38,250 nt of DNA from a virus. How positions within the stretch are numbered: the stretch's first letter is position 1; every line of letters begins with the position of its first letter. A program made the translations under genes and the position numbers. The notes beneath the pieces were generated by a model, which saw only the letters and a program-made list of their open reading frames with translations, was not told the DNA's origin and made no database searches. Below, piece after piece: positions 1,743-30,703 of the stretch. The stretch covers positions 1 to 38,250 of the IMG/VR virus record IMGVR_UViG_3300036781_000102, one strand, 5' to 3'.

Positions 1743-2153
1743 ATGGCTGGTTCAGTAAATAAAGTAATTCTAGTGGGAAATGTTGGTCAAGACCCTGAAA
1801 TCCGGAGCATGCAATCCGGGGACCGTGTGGCTAATCTATCGATTGCGACCTCGGAGACCTGGAAAGATAAAAGCGGCGAGCGCCAGGAAAAAACCCAATG
1901 GCACAAGATTGTCGTGTTTAACCAGAATATTGTTAACGTAATTGATAGCTACGTTACCAAGGGATCTAAAATATTCGTTGAAGGTCAATTAGAAACTCGC
2001 AAATGGGACAATAAAGAAGGTGTCACCCAGTATATGACTGAAATCGTTATTAAGCCGTTTAATGGCTCATTAACCATGCTTGATTCAAAGGGCGATAAAG
2101 TCATAAAAGAGAGAGAATATGAGACTGATGATTCAGGTGATATTCCTTATTAA
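1743..2153 (+). CDS. ssb: Single-stranded DNA-binding protein
   Basis: A 136-residue bacterial-type SSB. The OB fold covers residues 1-110, beginning with NKVILVGNVGQDPEIR and containing ATSETWKDKSGERQEKTQWH and the FVEGQLETRKW strand. It ends in the acidic tip DDSGDIPY, the tail that docks partner proteins onto SSB; the final residue is Tyr rather than the usual Phe. The linker is very short, about 15 residues. AAGGAG lies 9 bases before the ATG. It coats single strands and should cooperate with the adjacent ERF protein. Length and motifs fit the family well. Confidence 0.95.
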   Translation: MAGSVNKVILVGNVGQDPEIRSMQSGDRVANLSIATSETWKDKSGERQEKTQWHKIVVFNQNIVNVIDSYVTKGSKIFVEGQLETRKWDNKEGVTQYMTEIVIKPFNGSLTMLDSKGDKVIKEREYETDDSGDIPY

Positions 2154-2154
2154 T

Positions 2155-2487
2155 ATGCAAACTAACTTCAAACAAATCATCGTTCGAGACAAGAAACACT
2201 TAGAATTTATCCGTAAATTGAATTGCTGTGTGTGTTCTTGTTGGCCATCCGAAGCCTGTCACGTTCGTGCTGGTCTTTCGGGAGGTATTGGGATGAAACC
2301 GCCAGATTCGTTTGTGATTCCTATGTGTCACTCCTGTCATTTTACCCAACATAATATTGGGGAGAAAAAGTTCTGGGGGGATACAGACAAACCAAAAGAA
2401 CTGGCCAACGCTTTGTGGTTAATGACTAGCAATTTAGAAAAGGCAAAAGAGCGCATTGTATTGTTCAGAAAGACTATACGGACATGA
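2155..2487 (+). CDS. YbcO/DUF968-like HNH-type nuclease
   Basis: A 110-residue Cys/His-rich protein. Visible motifs are CCVC (24-27), ACHVR with His36, and MCHSCHFTQH (57-66) with Cys58, Cys61, His62 and His66. This matches the YbcO/DUF968/Ref group of small HNH nucleases found in lambdoid recombination regions, where Cys pairs bind structural zinc and the His residues form the active site. I place the start at 2155, one base after the SSB stop; an in-frame ATG at 2119 would add 12 hydrophobic residues read out of frame across the SSB tail, although it has a better Shine-Dalgarno (GAGAGA). It likely cuts DNA intermediates with NinB and RusA nearby. Confidence 0.75.
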   Translation: MQTNFKQIIVRDKKHLEFIRKLNCCVCSCWPSEACHVRAGLSGGIGMKPPDSFVIPMCHSCHFTQHNIGEKKFWGDTDKPKELANALWLMTSNLEKAKERIVLFRKTIRT

Positions 2488-2861
2488 AATATATTCTTAA
2501 AGACAGAAAGATAATTGAGAACTGCATAGAAGATGTATCTGGCTCTCTTGGCATGGAGGTTATAATTCAAAAACCTAAACGCTCTAATCCCCAGAATAAT
2601 CTGTACTGGTCTTTGGTTAAAGTTCTATCCGATTATATCGGAGACACTCAGGAAACAATCCATGAGCGTTTGAAGGTTGAATTCTTAGGCATAGAAAGAA
2701 AGATTGTCAGGGGAATTGAGTTAATTATGCCTAAGTCAACTGCGGAATTGAATACAAAGGAATTCACTGAGTACATAGACAAGGTTTATCTGCTCGGAGA
2801 GACTTTGGAACTAAAAATGCCAAAACCAAGCGACTATGGATATGGAGAGAAAAATGATTGA
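2484..2861 (+). CDS. ninB: NinB-family recombination protein
   Basis: A 125-residue protein resembling lambda NinB (Orf), a recombination mediator that binds single-stranded DNA and SSB and replaces RecFOR. The family pattern is seen in KRSNPQNNLYWSLVKVLSDYIG (about 32-53), the HERLKVEFLGIE segment, the PKSTAELNTKEFTEYIDKV segment and the acidic C-terminus. The ATG overlaps the previous stop by four bases (ATGA), so translation is probably coupled. Length is close to the lambda protein (146). Confidence 0.85.
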   Translation: MKYILKDRKIIENCIEDVSGSLGMEVIIQKPKRSNPQNNLYWSLVKVLSDYIGDTQETIHERLKVEFLGIERKIVRGIELIMPKSTAELNTKEFTEYIDKVYLLGETLELKMPKPSDYGYGEKND

Positions 2862-3033
2862 TCTAACCCATGAAGTAGAAATGAACACACTGAAAAATAT
2901 TTATGAGAAATTGCTCGCCCATAAGGGCTGTAAGGTTGCCGCTTGGTTGGTTCTAGCGGAGGCTACGAGGAAAGATCTGGAGTTTAAGTTTTATAAGAAG
3001 AATGGCGTAACAGTGCATGGAAGTGCATTTTAA
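2854..3033 (+). CDS. Small hypothetical protein (59 aa)
   Basis: No family recognised. The start at 2854 is chosen over an in-frame ATG at 2836 because GGAGAG lies directly in front of it with good spacing and the overlap with ninB becomes eight bases. The sequence is a single amphipathic helix region with a mid-segment GCKVAAWLVLAEAT, then a basic tail. It lies between NinB and a larger unknown. Translational coupling to ninB is likely. Confidence 0.65.
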   Translation: MIDLTHEVEMNTLKNIYEKLLAHKGCKVAAWLVLAEATRKDLEFKFYKKNGVTVHGSAF

Positions 3034-3063
3034 CCCCAACCAAGTTTAATGAAGGAGAGAGTG

Positions 3064-3885
3064 ATGAAAGCTATTAGATGGTCTGATAATGACCAATATT
3101 TTGGACCATTTACCTATTGTGGTTCTGACTATAGCAGATGGGCTATCATGCTTGGATCTGGTGACAACGATGATTATCCGCGCTGTCGTTTGCGTGTACA
3201 ATTGGGTACAAAAACATTTATTACGCTTTTACCGCAATGGGTTCTTAAACCTAAAAGGTTCTGGGTTGATACTTCAAAATATGGATGGTCGGACAACCCC
3301 AAAGGCGGGTATTGGGATACATATGAGCGAGAATATGGATTCACATACGGGGAAAAGAGCCTGCATGTTCATTTCGGTGAACAGACAATGTCTTGGCCAG
3401 GATCAAAAAGTAAATGTTATAGCATTCCATGGATAGACCAGCGTTTTGTGCGTATGAGTTATTACGGGGAAGATGGGAAACATTTCTATACAGAGCCGCT
3501 AGGTTTAAAGTGGTCAGATAAGGAATATAACGAGTCTAAAAAAATATCAGAATCCTGCCCATCGATTAAATTTGAATTCATTGACTTTGACAACCAAAGA
3601 ATTGAGGTCACGACCACAATAGAAGAGAGAGAATGGCATAGAGGAACTGGAAAGTTCAAATGGCTATCACTATTCTATAAACCTATGGTAAGCCGCTCTC
3701 TTAGCCTTAATTTCTCTTCTGAGGTAGGCCCTGAAAAGGGTTCTTGGAAAGGCGGCATGTTGGGGCACGCTATAAATATGCTATCCGGTGAGCTTCATGA
3801 AGAAGCATTCCGCAGGTATTGCGATGAAGAGCAAAGTGCAAGACACGGAAGAAAATATCGAATTACTTATATTGGTAAAATCTAA
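3064..3885 (+). CDS. Conserved hypothetical phage protein, Trp/Tyr-rich (273 aa)
   Basis: A 273-residue protein of unknown function that looks like a globular beta-rich fold, unusually rich in Trp and Tyr, with motifs such as RFWVDTSKYGWSD and YWDTYEREYGF. I recall similar proteins in other phage early regions but cannot name a family. ATG 3064 is preceded by AAGGAGAG with 6-base spacing; the ATG at 3049 overlaps that ribosome site and is rejected. The C-terminal GHAINMLSGELHEEAFRRYCDE is helical. No transmembrane segment or catalytic motif is visible. Context is replication and recombination. Confidence 0.75.
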   Translation: MKAIRWSDNDQYFGPFTYCGSDYSRWAIMLGSGDNDDYPRCRLRVQLGTKTFITLLPQWVLKPKRFWVDTSKYGWSDNPKGGYWDTYEREYGFTYGEKSLHVHFGEQTMSWPGSKSKCYSIPWIDQRFVRMSYYGEDGKHFYTEPLGLKWSDKEYNESKKISESCPSIKFEFIDFDNQRIEVTTTIEEREWHRGTGKFKWLSLFYKPMVSRSLSLNFSSEVGPEKGSWKGGMLGHAINMLSGELHEEAFRRYCDEEQSARHGRKYRITYIGKI

Positions 3886-3916
3886 CCCCGAGCGAATTGA
3901 TGAGGAATGAAAAATA

Positions 3917-3936
3917 ATACCGGACAATCCGGGTAT
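3917..3936 (+). other. Imperfect hairpin in intergenic space
   Basis: ATACC-GGA pairs with TCC-GGGTAT across a CAA loop with one bulged base, inside the 111-base gap between 3885 and 3997. No U-run follows, so it is not a clear intrinsic terminator; it may mark the mRNA 5' end of the next gene. The rest of the gap holds only the Shine-Dalgarno of the next gene. Confidence 0.35.
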
Positions 3937-3996
3937 ACACATTTAGACCTAATCCTGACTATTTGTGTTTAATCAAAGGATAAATGGAGAACTAAA

Positions 3997-4257
3997 ATGA
4001 CTAGAGAAGTAAAATTATTAAAGCCTATAGCTCGTACATCCGCTGGTCTTCGTGATGCTCTTTTTGATGAGCTGGATGGTTTGCGTGACGGCAGTGTTAA
4101 TGCAACACAAGCAAACGCAACTGCAAAGATTGCAGGTTCTATTGTTGATACAGTAAACATGGAAATGGCTGCTCATAAGATCCTTAGCAAGCACCCACAA
4201 CAGCAATTGACTGATTCAAAATTGCCATCAATTAGCCTTGGAACCCATAGTGGTTAA
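3997..4257 (+). CDS. Small hypothetical protein (86 aa)
   Basis: No function recognised. It is a helical protein: LRDALFDELDGLRDGSVNA followed by the Ala/Thr-rich TQANATAKIAGSIVDTVNMEM segment, with a short polar tail. The pattern (Asp/Glu-rich helix, then Asn-Ala-Thr repeats) recurs in small phage proteins near replication genes and may pack as a helical hairpin. GGAG precedes the ATG by seven bases. Its end overlaps the next gene. Confidence 0.7.
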   Translation: MTREVKLLKPIARTSAGLRDALFDELDGLRDGSVNATQANATAKIAGSIVDTVNMEMAAHKILSKHPQQQLTDSKLPSISLGTHSG

Positions 4258-4747
4258 TTTATATAAAGAATCTAACGGTGTTGAATGTCGTGCCTGTGGC
4301 GCGGCATTCGCCCAACCCGATGAATATGGTCCATTTTGCAATGTATGCATGAAGAAATTCAGATATGAATATTATGGCACCATAGATTCTAAGAGTAAGC
4401 CCCACACAGATGACGATCTCAATAAATGGCTTGTTAGACAGTTAGAACTTAACATTTTAAGAAAAACAAAACATGGATTTGCTGCGAGATGTGAAGGATT
4501 AACAGGGCAAGATCAAAATGGGAATCTGGGATATCAATGCGGTTTTTACGCATCGCATAAAGTTTGTGGTAGATATTTGTGTGAAAGTCATGCATATCCG
4601 AAAGGTAAGGGTTTTAAACATAGGACAAAATTTATAGAAGAATATAAAAGCCCTTATGTTTGGTTAGAGGAAATGGTTTCAGATTTATCTAAGCATGATC
4701 CAGATTTTAGAATGGCTGTTCTTAAGGGGGTAGGTATTTATAAATGA
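4250..4747 (+). CDS. Zinc-binding hypothetical protein
   Basis: About 165 residues with two Cys clusters: CRACGAAF plus CNVC near the N-terminus (a four-Cys treble-clef or ribbon) and a second group, CEG...YQCGF...VCGRYLCESH, around residues 80-120. This indicates two zinc sites and a nucleic-acid or protein binding role. There is no ATG; GTG at 4250 follows GGAA by six bases and overlaps the previous gene by eight bases. TTG at 4238 is an alternative. The C-terminal part is helical. It directly precedes RusA with an ATGA overlap. No named family. Confidence 0.7.
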   Translation: MVNLYKESNGVECRACGAAFAQPDEYGPFCNVCMKKFRYEYYGTIDSKSKPHTDDDLNKWLVRQLELNILRKTKHGFAARCEGLTGQDQNGNLGYQCGFYASHKVCGRYLCESHAYPKGKGFKHRTKFIEEYKSPYVWLEEMVSDLSKHDPDFRMAVLKGVGIYK

Positions 4748-5088
4748 CTCTAACACTCCCCTGGCCCCCATCTTTGCTATCCCCAAACTGCGCCAAACAC
4801 TGGCGGGCAAAGCTCAAGGCTAAGGACAAATATAAGGCCGATTGCTTGACTCTAGCGCTTGCTACAAAGCTTGAGTTACCACAGGGTAATATTCATCTGT
4901 ATGTTGTGTTCCATCCACCTACAAAGCGTAGGTTTGATCTGGATAACAGCTTAGCATCGATTAAGTATGGGTTAGATTCTGTGGCTCTTGCCTGGGGTAT
5001 TGATGATATCCGTTTTAGACCGATTACTGTGGACATGGGATACCCCATAAAGAGTGGGAAGATTATGGTTTCTATTATAGAATTATGA
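4744..5088 (+). CDS. rusA: RusA-family Holliday junction resolvase
   Basis: A 114-residue RusA homologue, an endonuclease that resolves four-way junctions. The family features are the N-terminal LTLPWPPSLLSPN, the HWRAKLKAKDKYK helix, and the acidic active-site region RFDLDNSLASIKYGLD, where Asp65, Asp67 and Asp78 correspond to the usual metal-binding aspartates, with Lys74 between them. Length is normal for the family (about 120). The ATG overlaps the upstream stop; the 3' end overlaps the convergent gene by six bases. It completes the recombination kit. Confidence 0.93.
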   Translation: MTLTLPWPPSLLSPNCAKHWRAKLKAKDKYKADCLTLALATKLELPQGNIHLYVVFHPPTKRRFDLDNSLASIKYGLDSVALAWGIDDIRFRPITVDMGYPIKSGKIMVSIIEL

Positions 5089-5421
5089 TTCTGTATTTTG
5101 TTTCCCGCGATAACCAATATCTATTAATGATTTCCGAATTAACTCACGTTCGAGGGCTTCCACATCTATGTGCCAATCCGGACGATCTGCACCTGGAGCC
5201 AAGAATGATTCAAATCGATCCTGCATTTCTCGAAGAACACGAATCCTCTGGCGCAACGCATTGCTATACGGTGCCCCTTCAGGACTCCACATTATAGTCA
5301 TATGGGCCTTAACTTCTTCTTCCGTGCTATGGCGGCTAGGGTCAAATTCCATTTCATGGATCTGTGAAGTTAAAGCGGGAGTTGGGATATTCTTAGGGTA
5401 ACAGAAAAAGTTTAATTTCAT
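5083..5421 (-). CDS. Unknown partner of the HTH regulator (112 aa)
   Basis: The second gene of a two-gene minus-strand operon; its ATG follows the HTH gene's TAG by one base, so the two are almost surely co-translated. I do not recognise the family. It is soluble, without membrane or signal segments: a Pro-containing N-terminus, an acidic patch, and a long charged helix NALRQRIRVLREMQDRFESFL, then a second helix near the C-terminus. The 3' end runs six bases into rusA. A role in immunity or lysogeny control is inferred from its partner only. A toxin-antitoxin-like pair is another option, but 58 plus 112 residues is not diagnostic. Confidence 0.7.
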   Translation of the reverse strand: MKLNFFCYPKNIPTPALTSQIHEMEFDPSRHSTEEEVKAHMTIMWSPEGAPYSNALRQRIRVLREMQDRFESFLAPGADRPDWHIDVEALERELIRKSLIDIGYRGKQNTES

Positions 5422-5422
5422 G

Positions 5423-5599
5423 CTAACCCAATTCCTTGATGGTTAATTTAACACCTGCCTCAATAGCAGTATGGACAAGCATAAATCTGTGAGCTTTTGG
5501 CACTTCCCCACGTTGCCGCCATTTCCAAATGGTGGGCTGTTTAAATCCGTTATAAAGAGCAACAATGTTTACACGCTGCCAAAGATCTAATTTCTGCAT
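5423..5599 (-). CDS. Small HTH transcription regulator (Cro/YdaS-like, 58 aa)
   Basis: Reads MQKLDLWQRVNIVALYNGF then KQPTIWKWRQRGEVPKAHRF: helices separated by the turn typical of Cro/YdaS-type HTH proteins, with QPTIWKWRQRG as the likely recognition helix. It is transcribed against the flanking early genes and faces a region with three ACAATTGT palindromes, its probable operators. A TTTACA/CATATT promoter pair on this strand places the transcript start at about the ATG itself, so the mRNA may be leaderless, like lambda cI from PRM. The next gene follows after one base. Function as repressor or Cro-like switch is inferred. Confidence 0.8.
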   Translation of the reverse strand: MQKLDLWQRVNIVALYNGFKQPTIWKWRQRGEVPKAHRFMLVHTAIEAGVKLTIKELG

Positions 5600-5605
5600 A
5601 CTGAC

Positions 5606-5634
5606 AATATGGACAATTGTCCTACAATTGTAAA
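5606..5634 (-). promoter_or_regulatory. Leftward promoter of the HTH operon
   Basis: On the minus strand TTTACA (5634-5629) is spaced 17 bases from CATATT (5611-5606). Predicted start of transcription is near 5599, the A of the ATG, with no Shine-Dalgarno. The spacer contains two ACAATTGT sites, so binding there should block this promoter. Confidence 0.55.
5611..5632. promoter_or_regulatory. Operator sites O1 and O2
   Basis: O1 is the perfect palindrome GGACAATTGTCC (5611-5622) and O2 the perfect palindrome TACAATTGTA (5623-5632). They share the core ACAATTGT and their centres are 11 bases apart, one helical turn, as expected for cooperative dimers. Confidence 0.7.
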
Positions 5635-5671
5635 GACTAAAAGAAAGAAATTTTATTGCTCAAATAGTCTA

Positions 5672-5685
5672 TGGACAATTGTCCA
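5672..5685. promoter_or_regulatory. Operator site O3
   Basis: A perfect 14-base palindrome, TGGACAATTGTCCA, containing the same 12 bases as O1. Its centre is 62 bases from O1 and it overlaps the -35 element of the rightward promoter. Confidence 0.72.
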
Positions 5686-5699
5686 GTTTTTGTTATTCT
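5672..5699 (+). promoter_or_regulatory. Rightward promoter of the accessory operon
   Basis: TGGACA (5672-5677) and TATTCT (5694-5699) are 16 bases apart. The -35 lies inside operator O3, so repressor binding would shut off the genes from 5733 onward. Confidence 0.5.
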
Positions 5700-5732
5700 C
5701 ATTTTTACCAACAACCAACCGGGACAAAACAA

Positions 5733-5879
5733 ATGAATATTGTATCAAAAGATGAAGAAATTTCAGAAATGTTGAAAGATAGATCTAAGCTAATTAGCTC
5801 CTTAAAGATATTGGCGGGGGAAGATAATAATGGTCTTTCTGAATCTGTTATCAATCAAATTAACTTATTAAAGGTGTGA
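5733..5879 (+). CDS. Small hypothetical protein (48 aa), first gene under the operator
   Basis: An acidic helical peptide with KDEEISEMLKDRSKLISSLK and a C-terminal SESVINQINLLKV. Upstream Shine-Dalgarno is weak (GGGAC). By position it is the first gene expressed from the operator-controlled promoter, the slot where a cro- or cII-like regulator often sits, but no HTH is visible. The frame extends upstream to 5679 only through the operator, so the ATG at 5733 is preferred. Confidence 0.6.
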   Translation: MNIVSKDEEISEMLKDRSKLISSLKILAGEDNNGLSESVINQINLLKV

Positions 5880-5884
5880 TAATC

Positions 5885-6037
5885 ATGAACGTATACCAAC
5901 TCACAGATAACGGCCAGGTAATCACAGAAGGCACAATGCTTGATTGCTTTAAACACGTAGCAATGGAATTACCGGCAATGACAGCGAAAGAATTTGTTGA
6001 TAGTGGGTTGGTGATTAAAGTTAGGGAGGGGGTGTAA
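5885..6037 (+). CDS. Small hypothetical protein (50 aa)
   Basis: Not recognised. AAAGGTG lies eight bases before the ATG. It starts MNVYQLTDNGQVITEGTML (two strands and a turn) and then a helix with AMTAKEFVDSGLVIKV; this looks like a small alpha/beta fold. The stop falls two bases before the next ATG. Confidence 0.65.
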   Translation: MNVYQLTDNGQVITEGTMLDCFKHVAMELPAMTAKEFVDSGLVIKVREGV

Positions 6038-21946: not shown

Positions 21947-22573
21947 TTATTCTCCTTGTTGTTTAGGTGGTCGGCCAGGGCCGCGTTTCATATCTTTTTC
22001 TACTGTAGAACTTAACTCTGCCATTTGCTCTTTTAAGAATTTAATATCATTCCTAAGATCTTCATTTTCTTTAATCAAGGAAGATGCAGTATTTTCTTTG
22101 CTGGAATCAAGAAAGAATTTAGCTTTTTCACGCAATTCTCTCCAGCCCAATCCGACAAGAGCTGCATCAGGAAGCGCAGCTAATTGTTCCACGGTATGAA
22201 TTTTAGCCCCCTTAAGTTCCAGGGCTTGGGACCGGCTCAGAGGTGGCCATTCTGTGATGGAAAAACCATCTTGAACTTGTTCTTGTTTATTTTTAAAGGA
22301 TTCCCATTGACGCGGGAAACGATCAGGATCAGAAGGACGATCTCCAGCTCCATCCATGTCAACAGGGCGGTCAATTGTCTTTGTACGATCACCAGGGAAA
22401 TCAATATGAATATAAGGTGTCTCTTTATAAATTGGACGCCCCTGTCTTTCCGACTCAAAACCTTGATAAACTGGCTCTGTCCTAAATTCTACATGGAGAT
22501 TTTTATCTTCTCCATGTGATACATGATAAGAATTTAAGCCGGTTTGTTCTAGTTTGATAGGTGCAAAGCTCAT
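21947..22573 (-). CDS. Conserved phage head-region protein with AT-hook-like tail (208 aa)
   Basis: Contains the pattern RFPRQWESFKNKQEQVQDGF followed by SITEWPPLSRSQALELKGAK and IHTVEQLAALPDAAL, known from uncharacterised phage proteins close to capsid genes; the last part resembles a small helix-hairpin segment. A coiled coil follows (ENEDLRNDIKFLKEQMAELS), and the end KRGPGRPPKQ is an AT-hook-like basic motif. AAAGGAAAA precedes the ATG. Virion role or DNA contact is inferred. Confidence 0.7.
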   Translation of the reverse strand: MSFAPIKLEQTGLNSYHVSHGEDKNLHVEFRTEPVYQGFESERQGRPIYKETPYIHIDFPGDRTKTIDRPVDMDGAGDRPSDPDRFPRQWESFKNKQEQVQDGFSITEWPPLSRSQALELKGAKIHTVEQLAALPDAALVGLGWRELREKAKFFLDSSKENTASSLIKENEDLRNDIKFLKEQMAELSSTVEKDMKRGPGRPPKQQGE

Positions 22574-22606: not shown

Positions 22607-24544
22607 TTATTTAGATTTTTCAAGTTGAATGAACCAAGTGAAATTTAATCCCAGTTCAGGTTTTCCAAGTTCGTCAACAGCTTTTTTGACTCCCCATGTC
22701 GGCCACGCAATATTATCATAATCATGCCCAGATATCCACCCACCGGATTTTATCTTTGGCAGCCAAGCTTCAATATCCTTTTTAACACTTTCATAACTAT
22801 GATCAGCGTCCAAAAAAACAAAATCTAAGGATTGATCCGCAAAATGAGAAGATGCCTCCAATGAACTTTTACGAATAACCTTCGCCCTAGAGCCAGCAAA
22901 AGATGTGACCAATTTTGTATGCTGATAATATCTCTCCTGTTCCATTTCAGATAATTTACCGTGGAAATCATTTTTACCATATTCGCTTTCAGGATCATGG
23001 GCTATCCAGCTATCAACCATGTAAAGCGTTAAGTCATCTCTCTTTAAAAGCCTTCTTGATAGTTCTCCGGTAAACACACCAACTTCTACCCCAACAGGAT
23101 TGGATATATCTTTGATTCTTTCATTAATAGCTGTGGCTCTTAAATCAGCTTCTGTGACAATCTTTCCGTCCCCGAGGTTTCTTGCCACATAAGGCAAAAG
23201 ACCCTCACCATGGACCGTTAAAACACACCCCAGATCTATTAATTGAGGAACCAATGAGCAAAATTGATTAACTTGCTCTGCCATCCATGCGGCAGTTATG
23301 AATTGCTTATCATAAGCCTCCACAGAGATTACACGCTCTTTGTCATTTAAGTCCTGGCTATAAGCATGGTGTTCCCCATCATCATATGAACTGTCAAACC
23401 CGTAAATATGGATATTCCTATAACCAATAATATAGGCAATACAAATGGCGTTTAGCCCTACGGTAGACCCACCAGCAACAAATACCTCCGCCCGCGGGTC
23501 TTTCTCCAGTAACTTTGCGGCATTTAAATGATTCCAGAGAATGGCATCGGTGGCCTCATCCCAAACAGCTTGGTCACATTGAGATGAATAGTATTTCTTA
23601 GCTGTGGGATTGATAAACTTTTTATTCTCTTCTCGGGCATCCAACATCACATGAAAATCACTCTCAATGCCGTTTTTATTCAGATATTCCCATGAATTAT
23701 TTAATGAAAATACATCTTGGCCATGTTCTTTTCTTATCATTATTTCATTAATGTTCTTCTTTAATGAGGGGCCACCACCTACGATAACGGCATGTCGTTC
23801 ATTCTCTGGCTGGTGATTTAACCATGTTCTGCTGAGACTTGTTGAATATTCAATATTTCTAATAAGGTTTTCCTCATCAGTATTACCTATAACTTGATCT
23901 AATGTATTTGCACCCCCAACTTTCCAAAACTTACTCACCCATCCGTTACATTCATGTGGTTTCGGGGTGCCATGGAAAGCAACAATTTTGGCTCCGGAAG
24001 GGATAAAATGCTGTGCGTTTACTTTGTAGCTAACAATCTCACCGGGAAAAATATCTTGAAGAATATCGGGACTTGAAACACATCTTTCAATCCAAGACTG
24101 GTCCCCACCCACGATTTCAGGGAATCCACATCTCTCATATTCCTCCCATATATCACGGCCCCAATTCCCTTTCCAGGCCATGATTCCAGAGCCCAGACCA
24201 TGCGGTCGATAGAAATCCCTCAGGATTGCGAACTCTCCCCCATAGGAAATAATATTTGTCAGATCACCTGTAATGATAGTATCTAAATCGAAAAATACAA
24301 TGCGATCATCTGGGTTAAAATGACCGTCTTTGAAAAGATACAGTTTATTCCACCAGCCTGCTAATTTGCCGTGTAATGGTCTAAACTCAACATTATCAAT
24401 AATCTCTTCACTATTCGTAAAACAGATAAATTGATAAGCAACGCCGTGCGGCATATTTCTATGAATCATGTCAGCTAAAATTTTGACATATTCTATACCG
24501 CGATCAAGGTAGTTATCGGCTTGGACACAAACTATTTTAATCAT
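22607..24544 (-). CDS. Glycosyltransferase / MptE-like / methyltransferase three-domain fusion (645 aa)
   Basis: Three domains in one chain. Residues 1-215 are a GT-A glycosyltransferase: KIVCVQADNYLDRG strand, GWWNKLYLF at 63-71, DxD motif FDLDT (86 and 88), and GGDQSWIE at 146-153. Residues about 250-455 match DUF115/MptE-like proteins: AVIVGGGPSL at 252-261, then FVAGGSTVGLNAICIAY and YGFDSSY at 381-387. Residues 470-645 are a class I SAM methyltransferase: GVEVGVFTG (485-493), MVDSW, FLDADHSYESV (577-587), SGHDYD (605-610). It probably modifies a surface sugar or virion protein. The start has no Shine-Dalgarno and follows a terminator. Substrates are unknown. Confidence 0.85.
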   Translation of the reverse strand: MIKIVCVQADNYLDRGIEYVKILADMIHRNMPHGVAYQFICFTNSEEIIDNVEFRPLHGKLAGWWNKLYLFKDGHFNPDDRIVFFDLDTIITGDLTNIISYGGEFAILRDFYRPHGLGSGIMAWKGNWGRDIWEEYERCGFPEIVGGDQSWIERCVSSPDILQDIFPGEIVSYKVNAQHFIPSGAKIVAFHGTPKPHECNGWVSKFWKVGGANTLDQVIGNTDEENLIRNIEYSTSLSRTWLNHQPENERHAVIVGGGPSLKKNINEIMIRKEHGQDVFSLNNSWEYLNKNGIESDFHVMLDAREENKKFINPTAKKYYSSQCDQAVWDEATDAILWNHLNAAKLLEKDPRAEVFVAGGSTVGLNAICIAYIIGYRNIHIYGFDSSYDDGEHHAYSQDLNDKERVISVEAYDKQFITAAWMAEQVNQFCSLVPQLIDLGCVLTVHGEGLLPYVARNLGDGKIVTEADLRATAINERIKDISNPVGVEVGVFTGELSRRLLKRDDLTLYMVDSWIAHDPESEYGKNDFHGKLSEMEQERYYQHTKLVTSFAGSRAKVIRKSSLEASSHFADQSLDFVFLDADHSYESVKKDIEAWLPKIKSGGWISGHDYDNIAWPTWGVKKAVDELGKPELGLNFTWFIQLEKSK

Positions 24545-24557
24545 GGTTCATAATGAC

Positions 24558-24589
24558 AAAAAAAGACAGGAGCGTAAACCCCTGTCTTT
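24558..24589 (-). terminator. Rho-independent terminator after the head genes
   Basis: On the minus strand AAAGACAGG, a 10-base loop, CCTGTCTTT and then a run giving seven T in all. The stem core GACAGG/CCTGTC is perfect. It lies between the decoration gene (stop 24612) and the fusion gene (start 24544). On the plus strand it also ends TTTAATTTT, so it could work both ways. Confidence 0.88.
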
Positions 24590-24611: not shown

Positions 24612-25166
24612 TTAGGTAATCTGACCCTGCATACTCGGACGATTCAGGAAACAAAGAACCGTCGAAGTAGTTGACGTTACAGTTGTTGCATTGAATGTTT
24701 TCATATTTGTGATCTGGCCACCAGCTGAAGTCAGGACTTTAATCCGACCAGCTGTTGCAGATGCATAAACAACAACATTCGGTGAAACAGTTACTGCAGT
24801 TTTAAGAACAGCGACTTGCCCCTGAATCTGGAACCAGCCGTATTGTACCGCAGTATTGGTAGCAAGCGTAACCGGCGCAACACCAACCCAATCACCTGTA
24901 TTCTTGGAAGTTGCAAGAACGGGCAAGAGGGCCATTGTATAACCAGCAGTCCATGTAACCACATTACCGGCGGTTACTGGGCTAGATGCAGGAATTTTTA
25001 GATAAATGAACTCCGCGCTGCCTAGGGTGGGGTCCCAGCCAGTGCAGATTTCCCCGAGTTGTGGCTCATAACCAGTGCTTGGAAGAATAGCAATGCCAGG
25101 TGCAGTCGTTGTAACTTGCGTTACGTCAATGGCACCAAGCTTATTCGATGAAAACGTATAAGTCAT
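24612..25166 (-). CDS. Putative capsid decoration/cement protein (184 aa)
   Basis: Beta-rich, low-charge protein directly downstream of the major capsid gene, the usual place for head decoration proteins: FSSNKLGAIDVTQVTTTAPG, PASSPVTAGNVVTWTAGYTM, VQYGWFQIQGQVAVLKTAVT, SATAGRIKVLTSAGGQ. The GWFQIQGQVAVL strand is shared by small capsid-associated proteins I have seen described. Followed by a strong terminator. Confidence 0.7.
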   Translation of the reverse strand: MTYTFSSNKLGAIDVTQVTTTAPGIAILPSTGYEPQLGEICTGWDPTLGSAEFIYLKIPASSPVTAGNVVTWTAGYTMALLPVLATSKNTGDWVGVAPVTLATNTAVQYGWFQIQGQVAVLKTAVTVSPNVVVYASATAGRIKVLTSAGGQITNMKTFNATTVTSTTSTVLCFLNRPSMQGQIT

Positions 25167-25177
25167 ATTTTTTCTCC

Positions 25178-26161
25178 TTAAGCGCTGAGGACGCCTTGCA
25201 GACGACGGTTAGAAACCGTCATATTACCTGCAAAGCCAATGAGTTTAACCATAGCATCTTGGTTGACAGCATAACGATCATCACCAAGTGGGACAAAGTT
25301 ACGGTCAGCGTGTGGACGGAAGAAAATGTAATCTGTATTAAGGAAATACATTGTATTCGTCGGAGCGCCGCCACCAAAGCCACCATCCAGTACCACGTCT
25401 GCATTCATATATTTCAGACTGTCGAAACCGGCAGATGCCATTTCGTCAGATCCAATACGTTGAATAGCTTGAAGTGATTCCAGATACAAACGCCAGTAGT
25501 TGTTATCAGCAACAATCAAATCAGTTTTATCAGCACCGCGTACCAATTGGATATACACACGGTTCATATAAGACTGAATATTAGAACTTGCTGTTGCTGC
25601 ACCGCCATCGGTAGCCCCGGAGAATGCAATATTTCTCCAGAATGTACCGATTGAGGCAGAAGCATCAATACCACCAACAACACCTGTCGTTGGTGTTTTC
25701 GATACCAGAAGTGCCAAGCCGCCGATTTGGCGGCCGCCATCTGCTGTGCCATCAGAATAGCAATCCAAAGCGACGTTGTTGGTCATTGTACGTTCCGCAT
25801 TCCCAATGCGGCTTTCCAAAAGATCAATAATCGCATTCTCGCCGGAGTTTTGCAGTTCTTCAAGACCAGAGATAGAAACAGCAACTGCTGCCTGGGCATA
25901 GTTATACTCAGCACCGGTGAATACATCCGAAGGGGAAATATTCAGAGCTTCATAGCCAGAATAGCGTTTGTATGTTCCGTTTTCTGCGTATTCAAGCTCT
26001 TGAACAATAGTGCGGCCACCAGAAACAGGCTTTACTTTGCCTTTTTTCTTCAGACGCATCAAAAGAGCATTGTTTTTCGTTACGTTGTCGGCAAGTTTGC
26101 CGGTACGGTTACGAAGAGTAGTCGTAATAATCTCCGTGAGATTGTTATTTGGAACTGCCAT
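25178..26161 (-). CDS. Major capsid protein
   Basis: A 327-residue protein beginning NNLTEIITTTLRNRTGKLAD and NALLMRLKKKGKVKPVSGGR, with the YNYAQAAVAVSISGLEELQN stretch, the DLLESRIGNAERTMTNNVAL helix and the late MYFLNTDYIFFRPHADRNFV segment, a pattern of HK97-fold capsid proteins from podophages of the Bordetella BPP-1 kind. No N-terminal delta domain is seen; a separate scaffold gene precedes it. Ribosome site AGGAGG is five bases from the ATG but inside a hairpin. Confidence 0.88.
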   Translation of the reverse strand: MAVPNNNLTEIITTTLRNRTGKLADNVTKNNALLMRLKKKGKVKPVSGGRTIVQELEYAENGTYKRYSGYEALNISPSDVFTGAEYNYAQAAVAVSISGLEELQNSGENAIIDLLESRIGNAERTMTNNVALDCYSDGTADGGRQIGGLALLVSKTPTTGVVGGIDASASIGTFWRNIAFSGATDGGAATASSNIQSYMNRVYIQLVRGADKTDLIVADNNYWRLYLESLQAIQRIGSDEMASAGFDSLKYMNADVVLDGGFGGGAPTNTMYFLNTDYIFFRPHADRNFVPLGDDRYAVNQDAMVKLIGFAGNMTVSNRRLQGVLSA

Positions 26162-28492: not shown

Positions 28493-30703
28493 TTACAAAG
28501 TAACGCTAAGAGTTTCACCAGTTGTACCAGTTCCGCCCGTAACCAGTGTATTGGCACCCCCAGCCAAAGCAACAGGAGAGACCGTTCTCGATCCTGTTGC
28601 TACGCTCACTGTGCCACCCAATTGTACTAAAATAATAACCCCAGCTTTGCCCGCTGCTCCACCATAGCCTCCGGTTGCAACTCCTAAACCAGCACCACCG
28701 TTACCACCGTTGCCACCATTTGCAGTAATCAAACCAGTTTTGGTCGTTCCGCTTAACGTTTTATAGATAATATAAATTAAAGATCCGCCCCCACCACATC
28801 CGCCCATGCCACCACTTCGGTTTGTTCCGCCAGGAGATTGCGCGCCATTACCACCATTACCCGCCGGTGAATTAATGGCATTAGTCCCAGTTGAAGAACT
28901 GCGATTAATCGTATTTGCAGAAATGAAAATACCTATTGCGCCGCAGCCACCACCCCCGCCGCCGCCGCCAGCGTTTGTTCCATCGCCCGCACCAGAAGCG
29001 CCTCCAGCGCCTCCATTGGACGATCCATAGTTAGCACCCATAATTGAGTACGGAAATGGGGTTGCGTATCTAGGATCATTTAAAGAACCAAGGACATTAG
29101 CCGCCTGAGTGCCCCCAGTATTACCACCAGCATTCCCACCCTTTTCACTATTGCCGCCTCCACCCGGTTGACCGCCCATAAATGTTAATAAGTTAATAAC
29201 TGCTGATGATGCCCCGCCGGTTGTTACGCCATTAGCCCCCGCACTCCCTGCTAGCCCAGGTCCTATTGTTCTATTCCCTACAGCAATTGCCGCGCCAGCA
29301 GCCCCGCCGGTTGAGCCAGAAGCATTGGCCCCATTATTTGGTGTTGTGGAAACAATAGCATTCGCTGGAGCAGCCGAAATATCAAGCGTTCCGGCCACAA
29401 ATATTCTGAATTGGCCGGAATTAAGCGATCCTGTCCCAGATATTGTGAGATTATTGTAATACATATCTCTGGTCATTGTGGTTGTGCCACTACTAATCGT
29501 GACATTCCCATCAGAGCCATCGCCAAACCACATTGAATCTGGCGAGGAACCGCCGGTGGAAGCGATAGTTAATGTATTAGTACCCGGCGTAACAGTGATG
29601 CCGGTTCCGGCTGCCAATGTTTTTACTTCTTGAGCCGTCCCAGCCGTGTTCATACCAAATAATTGGTTTGCACTCCCATTGCCCAAAGATGCGGTAGAAG
29701 GTGTGACGTGAATTGTTCCAACCGTTGCAGATGAGACGCCCACAATACCGACTCTATACCGATAATTTGGAGCAATAGGAGCAGTTGAAGTTAGCCCCCC
29801 AGCAACAGTGGAAGAAACATAAACTATTTGTCCGGCTGTGAATAAAGATGTATCTAATCCATGAACAACGCCAATGCATGTGACATACCCGATTGCCCCA
29901 TTTGCTATAGTTTCTGTTGTCAGTCCTGCGCCAATAGTTGTGGTTGATGCGTTTGATTGAGCCAATGCTATTGTTGGCATACCTGCAGATGCCCCGTTTA
30001 AATAAACAGCCGAACCATTAGCAATAGAAGATCCGCTATTATTGGTAACGCGAATCCACTCTTCTTGCCCGATCTGAAGAGAGATATTTGTATCATTATT
30101 GAAAAATGTTAATGATTCATTTGATGTATCATAAACAAGCTTACCACGGGCGTAAGCTGGGGATGAAGTTTGCGATAATGTTAAGTCACCGCCAGAGAAT
30201 GATGTTGCGCCCAAAGTACCTGTATTTGAATTAAAGGTAAAATTTGCGTTTGACTTGACCGCCTGATCGCCAGTGGCAGTCGTTGCGAAAAGAGGAAAAC
30301 AGGTTGCATCTGTCGCTTCATTTGCTACCGCGATGTGAGTTGCTGTTATCGTTCCTGTGCTGGAATAAGTGAGTGTTCCACCAGCCCCAACGGTCATTGC
30401 CGCTGTCGTATTGGATCCGCTTGTAATACCGCTAAAAGCAATAGATGTTGCTGTGGCATGGGAAACCAATGGATTACCAGGGGTTCCGTCTCCGGTCACT
30501 GTCGAACCATCAACGGCAACATTGTTTTGAGTTTGATCTATAGTTCCCGTAATTGTATGTGTTGCATTCCAATCTGATGGAAGCGTGATTTGTGAAAGTG
30601 TTGTCCCGGGTGAAAAATTTCCAGCAAGAATTTGCGCGTCTAATTGGGCTTGTGTCCAATCGGATTCAGCATTCGTCTTTGCATGTTTAATCGTTAGTGT
30701 CAT
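28493..30703 (-). CDS. Large tail fibre / adhesin with glycine-rich C-terminal region (736 aa)
   Basis: Residues 1-80 are a fibre-type head; 80-390 are beta repeats including a YVSSTVAGGLT segment; 390-450 read WFGDGSDGNVTISSGTTTMT and DMYYNNLTISGTGSLNSG, a recurring entry to Gly-rich adhesins; about 457-690 contains dense glycine runs such as GGQPGGGG, an eight-Gly run at about 579-586, and GGMGGCGGGG, alternating with hydrophobic strands (AIGIFISANTI, LIYIIYKTL, AGVIILVQL). This resembles polyglycine-II sandwich adhesins of the phage S16 gp38 kind, though I did not compare structures. It starts four bases inside the portal stop. Confidence 0.8.
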   Translation of the reverse strand: MTLTIKHAKTNAESDWTQAQLDAQILAGNFSPGTTLSQITLPSDWNATHTITGTIDQTQNNVAVDGSTVTGDGTPGNPLVSHATATSIAFSGITSGSNTTAAMTVGAGGTLTYSSTGTITATHIAVANEATDATCFPLFATTATGDQAVKSNANFTFNSNTGTLGATSFSGGDLTLSQTSSPAYARGKLVYDTSNESLTFFNNDTNISLQIGQEEWIRVTNNSGSSIANGSAVYLNGASAGMPTIALAQSNASTTTIGAGLTTETIANGAIGYVTCIGVVHGLDTSLFTAGQIVYVSSTVAGGLTSTAPIAPNYRYRVGIVGVSSATVGTIHVTPSTASLGNGSANQLFGMNTAGTAQEVKTLAAGTGITVTPGTNTLTIASTGGSSPDSMWFGDGSDGNVTISSGTTTMTRDMYYNNLTISGTGSLNSGQFRIFVAGTLDISAAPANAIVSTTPNNGANASGSTGGAAGAAIAVGNRTIGPGLAGSAGANGVTTGGASSAVINLLTFMGGQPGGGGNSEKGGNAGGNTGGTQAANVLGSLNDPRYATPFPYSIMGANYGSSNGGAGGASGAGDGTNAGGGGGGGGCGAIGIFISANTINRSSSTGTNAINSPAGNGGNGAQSPGGTNRSGGMGGCGGGGSLIYIIYKTLSGTTKTGLITANGGNGGNGGAGLGVATGGYGGAAGKAGVIILVQLGGTVSVATGSRTVSPVALAGGANTLVTGGTGTTGETLSVTL

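Follow-up and report, generated by a model that had tools for sequence, protein, structure and literature searches.

What substrate would be served by a phage gene that stands among virion genes and joins, in one chain, a glycosyltransferase, a DUF115 domain and a methyltransferase? The question is raised by a 38,250 nt contig from an IMG/VR virus record (IMGVR_UViG_3300036781_000102), the whole of which was analysed here and is referred to as the window. The gene, termed the module below, is intact, encoding 645 aa from an ATG start with zero internal stops, and the GT-A, DUF115/MptE-like and SAM methyltransferase motifs that the original prediction had read from it (the DxD at D86/D88, VIVGGGPSL, GVEVGVFTG and DADHSYE) are all present in the one chain. 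Its placement among virion genes was likewise confirmed by its neighbours, which match a major head protein and a portal in PHROGs and a terminase in Pfam. In order of transcription, the cluster runs from the terminase through the portal, a 736-aa Gly/Ser/Thr-rich protein, small ORFs, a 317-aa protein (g317), the major capsid protein (MCP), the decoration protein DEC and a terminator-like hairpin to the module, and continues with g208, g118, a tail protein, an amidase and further structural genes (Table 1). The MCP is 50% identical to that of Mx8 and 64% identical to that of a Bradyrhizobium phage, and its named kin include Myxococcus, Bradyrhizobium and Stenotrophomonas phages. The module gene carries no foreign GC signature (0.397 vs 0.375-0.480 in other late genes), and a promoter scan revealed no excess indicative of a private promoter (10 vs 11.6 by chance). 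Two further genes of the window were recorded in passing. The 736-aa protein (28493-30703, minus strand), composed of 19% Gly and 25% Ser+Thr and with an odd codon-position GC, had no family match in Pfam or PHROGs and is possibly a head fibre. The plus-strand arm of the phage probably carries an anti-CBASS gene (3049-3885), which matches the Pfam Acb3 CBASS inhibitor family at E=2e-70.

Table 1. Features of the module and its surroundings in the window.
Feature	Position	Strand	Basis
g208, conserved virion-cluster gene directly downstream of the module, right border of the slot	21947..22573	-	
Three-domain protein, GT8-like / DUF115 (Maf-like) / Methyltransf_24, 645 aa	22607..24544	-	Pfam, PHROGs, AF2, Foldseek
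SAM methyltransferase domain (sugar O-methyltransferase-like), aa 462-640	22625..23161	-	Pfam, NovP/MycF/MeT1 folds
DUF115 / Maf-like domain, aa 225-453, motifs GGGPSL, GFDSSY, HHAYSQ	23186..23872	-	Pfam, Maf profile match
GT-A (GT8, glycogenin-like) domain, aa 1-210, DxD at aa 86-88	23915..24544	-	PHROG 1962, glycogenin profile, Foldseek
Intrinsic terminator-like hairpin between DEC and module	24562..24589	-	
DEC, capsid decoration protein, predicted acceptor, co-inherited with module	24612..25166	-	PHROG 29386, AF2, capsid cement/decoration folds, tree congruence
Ser/Thr patch TVTSTTST, DEC aa 162-169, predicted acceptor loop	24660..24683	-	
Major capsid protein MCP (Mx8-like)	25178..26161	-	PHROG 9953, E=1e-128

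The nature of the three domains was resolved by combining profile matches, which lie above cut-offs wherever cut-offs exist in Pfam and PHROGs, with structure prediction. An AF2 model of the protein (pLDDT 84, pTM 0.50), in which the domains are confident but their mutual arrangement is not, supported all three folds, with Foldseek matching them to glycogenin/GlyE (GT8), Maf (5mu5) and the sugar O-methyltransferases NovP/MycF/MeT1, respectively. The N-terminal domain matches PHROG 1962 (E=3e-33, aa 13-208) and a glycogenin profile (E about 1e-6), and displays the GT-A fold, DxD and GDQ of GT8 enzymes: D86xD88 and G147-D148-Q149 align with glycogenin, D86-L-D88 is invariant among 13 relatives, and a metal-site His lies near that of glycogenin, though not in the identical column. 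Lone relatives of this GT8-like domain were also seen in Rhodospirillales and other proteobacterial genomes (L166-L174), with DUF115 and capsid genes not detected there. The C-terminal domain matches Methyltransf_24 (E=3e-18, aa 486-609, including GVEVGVFTG and DADHSYE), a family that by itself cannot separate sugar from protein or other O-methylation.

For the central domain, the Pfam MptE-like match (E=1e-18, aa 226-389, including VIVGGGPSL) and the GxGPS and GxD motifs of PF01973, with P259/S260 and D384 invariant in the family alignment, uphold the original assignment to DUF115. Its nearness to MptE did not hold: a DUF115 profile matched Maf (5mu5) at E=5.7e-14 vs 0.004 for the MptE-type HMPPK (8sd5), and the Maf alignment runs past GxD into an HH..Q motif, whereas the pterin kinase alignment ends at GxD. 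A reading as an MptE 6-hydroxymethylpterin diphosphokinase was rejected on these grounds. The N-terminal Rossmann-like and C-terminal helical domains of Maf are absent, and because DUF115 is instead flanked by GT8-like and methyltransferase domains we do not classify the protein as a Maf; it may still act in the same way.

How widely this architecture occurs, and which of its parts are constant, was explored among related phages. Since single-protein scans of viral and genome contig collections with the window protein gave no relative, an alignment-based scan was needed; tblastn with the DUF115 domain alone likewise gave no matches in phages. Searching with aligned module sequences, blind to context, recovered 207 relatives. 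In addition, starting from MCP relatives, the DEC-g208 interval was inspected for the module and was found to hold a GT-DUF115-MT chain, GT-DUF115, DUF115 alone, or nothing. Among 78 new loci examined, the MCP lies upstream in 68/68 with enough upstream flank, and 73/73 with room have virion genes downstream, while GT+DUF115+Methyltransf_24 occurs in one ORF in 40, GT+DUF115+FkbM in 14 and GT+DUF115 in 20. The search for the same architecture next to capsid genes that the original prediction had called for was positive, and an order of domains unique to the window's phage was rejected, the chain recurring among IMG/VR phages. As all three domains are kept in dozens of further phage contigs, their combination is not a product of chance; one full module was also found in a Rhodopila-like genome. 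The accompanying statement that no described phage system has this order agrees with the open papers searched, but it recurs widely among IMG/VR phages, homologues are already in BFVD under the label 'MptE-like', and mycobacteriophages offer a comparable arrangement in separate genes.

The variants reveal an ordered modularity. The core tree implies 7 or more switches of methyltransferase type, and among 244 de-duplicated MCP loci a Methyltransf_24 or FkbM domain is present in 81/131 loci with the module and in 0/113 without it. Together with the variant chains, these patterns define DUF115 as the core, with the GT and methyltransferases as swappable decorators, an organization that fits glycan building. 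Variants in which DUF115 is fused to a third methyltransferase class without a GT are also present. Several further occupants of the same slot were observed. In L065, a hexapeptide acyltransferase (3326-4108) stands beside a DUF115 protein whose N-terminal domain is of another kind (4108-5553), possibly reflecting acylation instead of methylation; in L142, a sugar-type C-methyltransferase (2011-3249; Methyltransf_13/23/14) stands beside a GT2/Glyco_transf_7C-DUF115 fusion (3249-5336); and in L122, a slot ORF (5051-6004) combines methyltransferase and CTP-dependent riboflavin-kinase-like (DUF120) domains.

If the substrate is a virion protein, the gene encoding the acceptor is expected to evolve with the module, and the candidate that does so is DEC. 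Its AF2 model (pLDDT 88.8, pTM 0.86) adopts a decoration fold, resembling the capsid decoration/cement proteins of Pam3, HFTV1, Sf11 and TW1 (E 2e-5 to 2e-3) as well as the phi29 head-fibre base, and Mx8 carries a DEC homologue (profile E=4e-46) directly after its MCP gene, where the annotation reads 'major virion structural protein'. A profile seeded with the window's DEC recognised the protein in 149/244 loci. On the same 136 loci, module state changes 3 times on the DEC tree, compared to 13 on the MCP, 18 on the g208 and 17 on the TAIL tree and about 44 when shuffled, these being trees built by quick methods from loci of which the module-positive ones were partly gathered via the module itself. 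IQ-TREE gave 4 changes for DEC, 14 for MCP and 18 for g208 (2, 13 and 16, respectively, without DUF-only loci), and the AMI and g317 trees are likewise poorly congruent with module state. A DEC clade of 67 rows has only module-positive members (SH-aLRT 97), and another of 27 has only module-negative ones. The window displays such a DEC swap directly: its MCP and g208 are nearest to those of module-negative phages (86% and 60% in L002), while the best 10 matches of its DEC are all module-positive (74% in L020). Co-inheritance of this kind could arise from the joint transfer of two neighbours with no enzyme-substrate relation; however, g208 is equally close to the module, and linkage alone therefore does not explain the pattern. 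We found no earlier report, in the open papers searched, of a decoration protein co-inherited with a putative glycan writer.

The composition of DEC also varies with the module. Ser+Thr content is higher in DEC proteins with the module than in those without (0.205 vs 0.162, p=2.5e-10 in a first set; 0.207 vs 0.173, p=1.6e-5 in a replication on later-fetched contigs), with no difference in length, and in the control proteins portal, g317, g208, TAIL, amidase and MCP the change in Ser+Thr content does not exceed 0.014 either way. The effect amounts to +0.045 when corrected on the MCP tree (t=7.7) and +0.038 on the DEC tree, where few transitions account for the t of 2.5; with 2-4 transitions on that tree, the difference rests on few independent events, and an independent-pairs test has too few for significance to be attainable. 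The clearest difference falls at aa 162-169, in the loop preceding the last strand of the DEC model, which reads TVTSTTST with the module and TGTLAATQ without it, position 165 being Ser/Thr in 0.85 and 0.07 of sequences, respectively. Another virion protein might serve as the acceptor in place of DEC, which would then hitch-hike: the MCP, itself slightly richer in Ser/Thr with the module (+0.006, t=2.4), the Gly/Ser/Thr-rich 736-aa protein, which like a 433-aa protein of the virion cluster is 25% Ser/Thr, or a tail fibre. Some module-positive phages moreover carry another, unrecognised protein in the DEC position after the MCP. We nevertheless regard this alternative as unlikely, given that the strong Ser/Thr effect is confined to DEC and that the MCP, g208, TAIL, AMI and g317 trees fit module state poorly.

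Because the module adjoins the DEC gene and is inherited with it, a methyl-capped sugar is most likely put on the exterior of the virus particle. Specifically, we propose that the two genes probably constitute a cassette in which a DUF115-centred enzyme O-glycosylates and methylates the outer capsid decoration protein, which narrows the capsid or fibre protein of the original prediction to one candidate acceptor by virtue of its co-inheritance, Ser/Thr patch and decoration fold. The soluble enzyme would act on DEC in the cytoplasm during late infection, O-glycosylating its Ser/Thr residues, most likely in the TVTSTTST loop. By analogy with Maf, the DUF115 domain would place the first sugar on Ser/Thr, the donor probably being a CMP-nonulosonate or KDO-type compound made by the host; the GT8-like domain would then extend it with a UDP-hexose and the methyltransferase would cap it by O-methylation, resulting in virions with a variable glycan coat that may benefit the phage through surface shielding, stability or attachment. 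We infer this order of steps from DUF115 being nearly always present and the other parts depending on it, and the donor sugars from family knowledge.

The original prediction had also raised the modification of host surface sugars, which for LPS, capsule or flagellin could block superinfection or change serotype. DUF115/GT42-like enzymes act on bacterial LPS and flagellin, and a weak PseD match was found, but we consider this role improbable: the 645-aa protein has no transmembrane segment, its gene sits in the late head operon in all loci whose flanks are long enough, and it shares its inheritance with the capsid decoration gene rather than with other genes. There is little to recommend a permissive moron site in which DEC and the module co-travel merely as neighbours: the slot does carry other cargo and a terminator-like hairpin precedes the module, but g208, just as near on the other side, shows 18 changes vs 3, and the Ser/Thr patch of DEC differs with module state. 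The hairpin, of which a similar one occurs in L041 and others follow DEC in module-negative kin, suggests a dosage step behind the coat genes. Finally, that the module makes or attaches a DNA modification (glycosylated or methylated bases) is barely credible, for although one of the PHROG neighbours of the methyltransferase bears the name DNA methyltransferase and phage GTs can hypermodify DNA (as cited in PMC12619734), hydroxymethylase, thymidylate-synthase-like and TET-type genes were not found among the window proteins scanned, and the folds are those of sugar/protein-type GTs and small-molecule O-methyltransferases.

Returning to the glycosylation of DEC, we tentatively suggest a more general scheme of a 'coat protein + dedicated glycan writer' cassette, for which the case is as yet somewhat short of even, whereby decoration proteins are swapped along with a matched modular Maf-type enzyme, and the sugar coat of the capsid is diversified by shuffling of GT and methyltransferase domains, much as bacteria vary their flagellar or O-antigen glycans. 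If capsid glycans do vary in this manner, they may influence how stable the particles are, how they attach to surfaces and how phages are recognised by immune systems. Should DEC glycosylation prove true, capsid glycosylation would extend, by a different (Maf-type) chemistry, to Mx8-like phages, a large group linked to proteobacteria, the acceptor would have been named ahead of experiment, and a defined test set would be at hand in matched phages that have near-identical capsids but differ in whether they carry the module.

To our knowledge, most of what is known of phage capsid glycosylation comes from mycobacteriophages. Among known systems, the closest is found in the cluster O mycobacteriophages such as Corndog, in which an O-methyltransferase (gp35) and GTs (gp36-38) lie between portal and protease and have been proposed to modify the capsid (PMC4351075); glycans on capsid and tail have since been reported (Freeman et al. 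2023, as cited in PMC11600133 and PMC12619734). The module shares with Corndog the presence of GTs and an O-methyltransferase within the virion structural operon. It differs in that these are separate genes in Corndog, in a phage of Mycobacterium, whereas in the window's system a DUF115/Maf-like core joins them in a single chain, encoded next to a decoration protein, and the phages are Mx8-like. Phage P1 encodes a GT-domain relative, pmgQ, near the weakly DUF115-like pmgO and pmgP among putative morphogenetic genes (L177, 1593-4151), a hint from sequence that P1 virions or late proteins might be glycosylated. Similarly, Citrobacter phage phiNP has adjacent genes annotated as an alpha-2,3-sialyltransferase and a GT relative. 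Both sets are split genes of distant sequence that lack a methyltransferase domain, and no glycan is reported for either in the open papers searched. For the C-terminal domain, the TylF/MycF/NovP sugar O-methyltransferases offer the best solved folds; their substrates are small-molecule antibiotic sugars, whereas the window's domain is fused to two GT-like domains. The Maf flagellin O-glycosyltransferases (5mu5; Maf of C. botulinum) have a central PF01973 domain related to the Cst-II sialyltransferase (PMC11339370) and include the best solved relative of the window's DUF115 domain, 5mu5. Maf targets Ser/Thr of a self-assembling surface protein, as is predicted for the window's enzyme, but has other N- and C-terminal domains and flagellin as its acceptor, in place of the GT8 and O-methyltransferase flanks and the predicted acceptor DEC. 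By analogy with these systems, the window's module would thus represent a capsid-glycosylation strategy comparable to that of the mycobacteriophages, but one executed with Maf-type chemistry.
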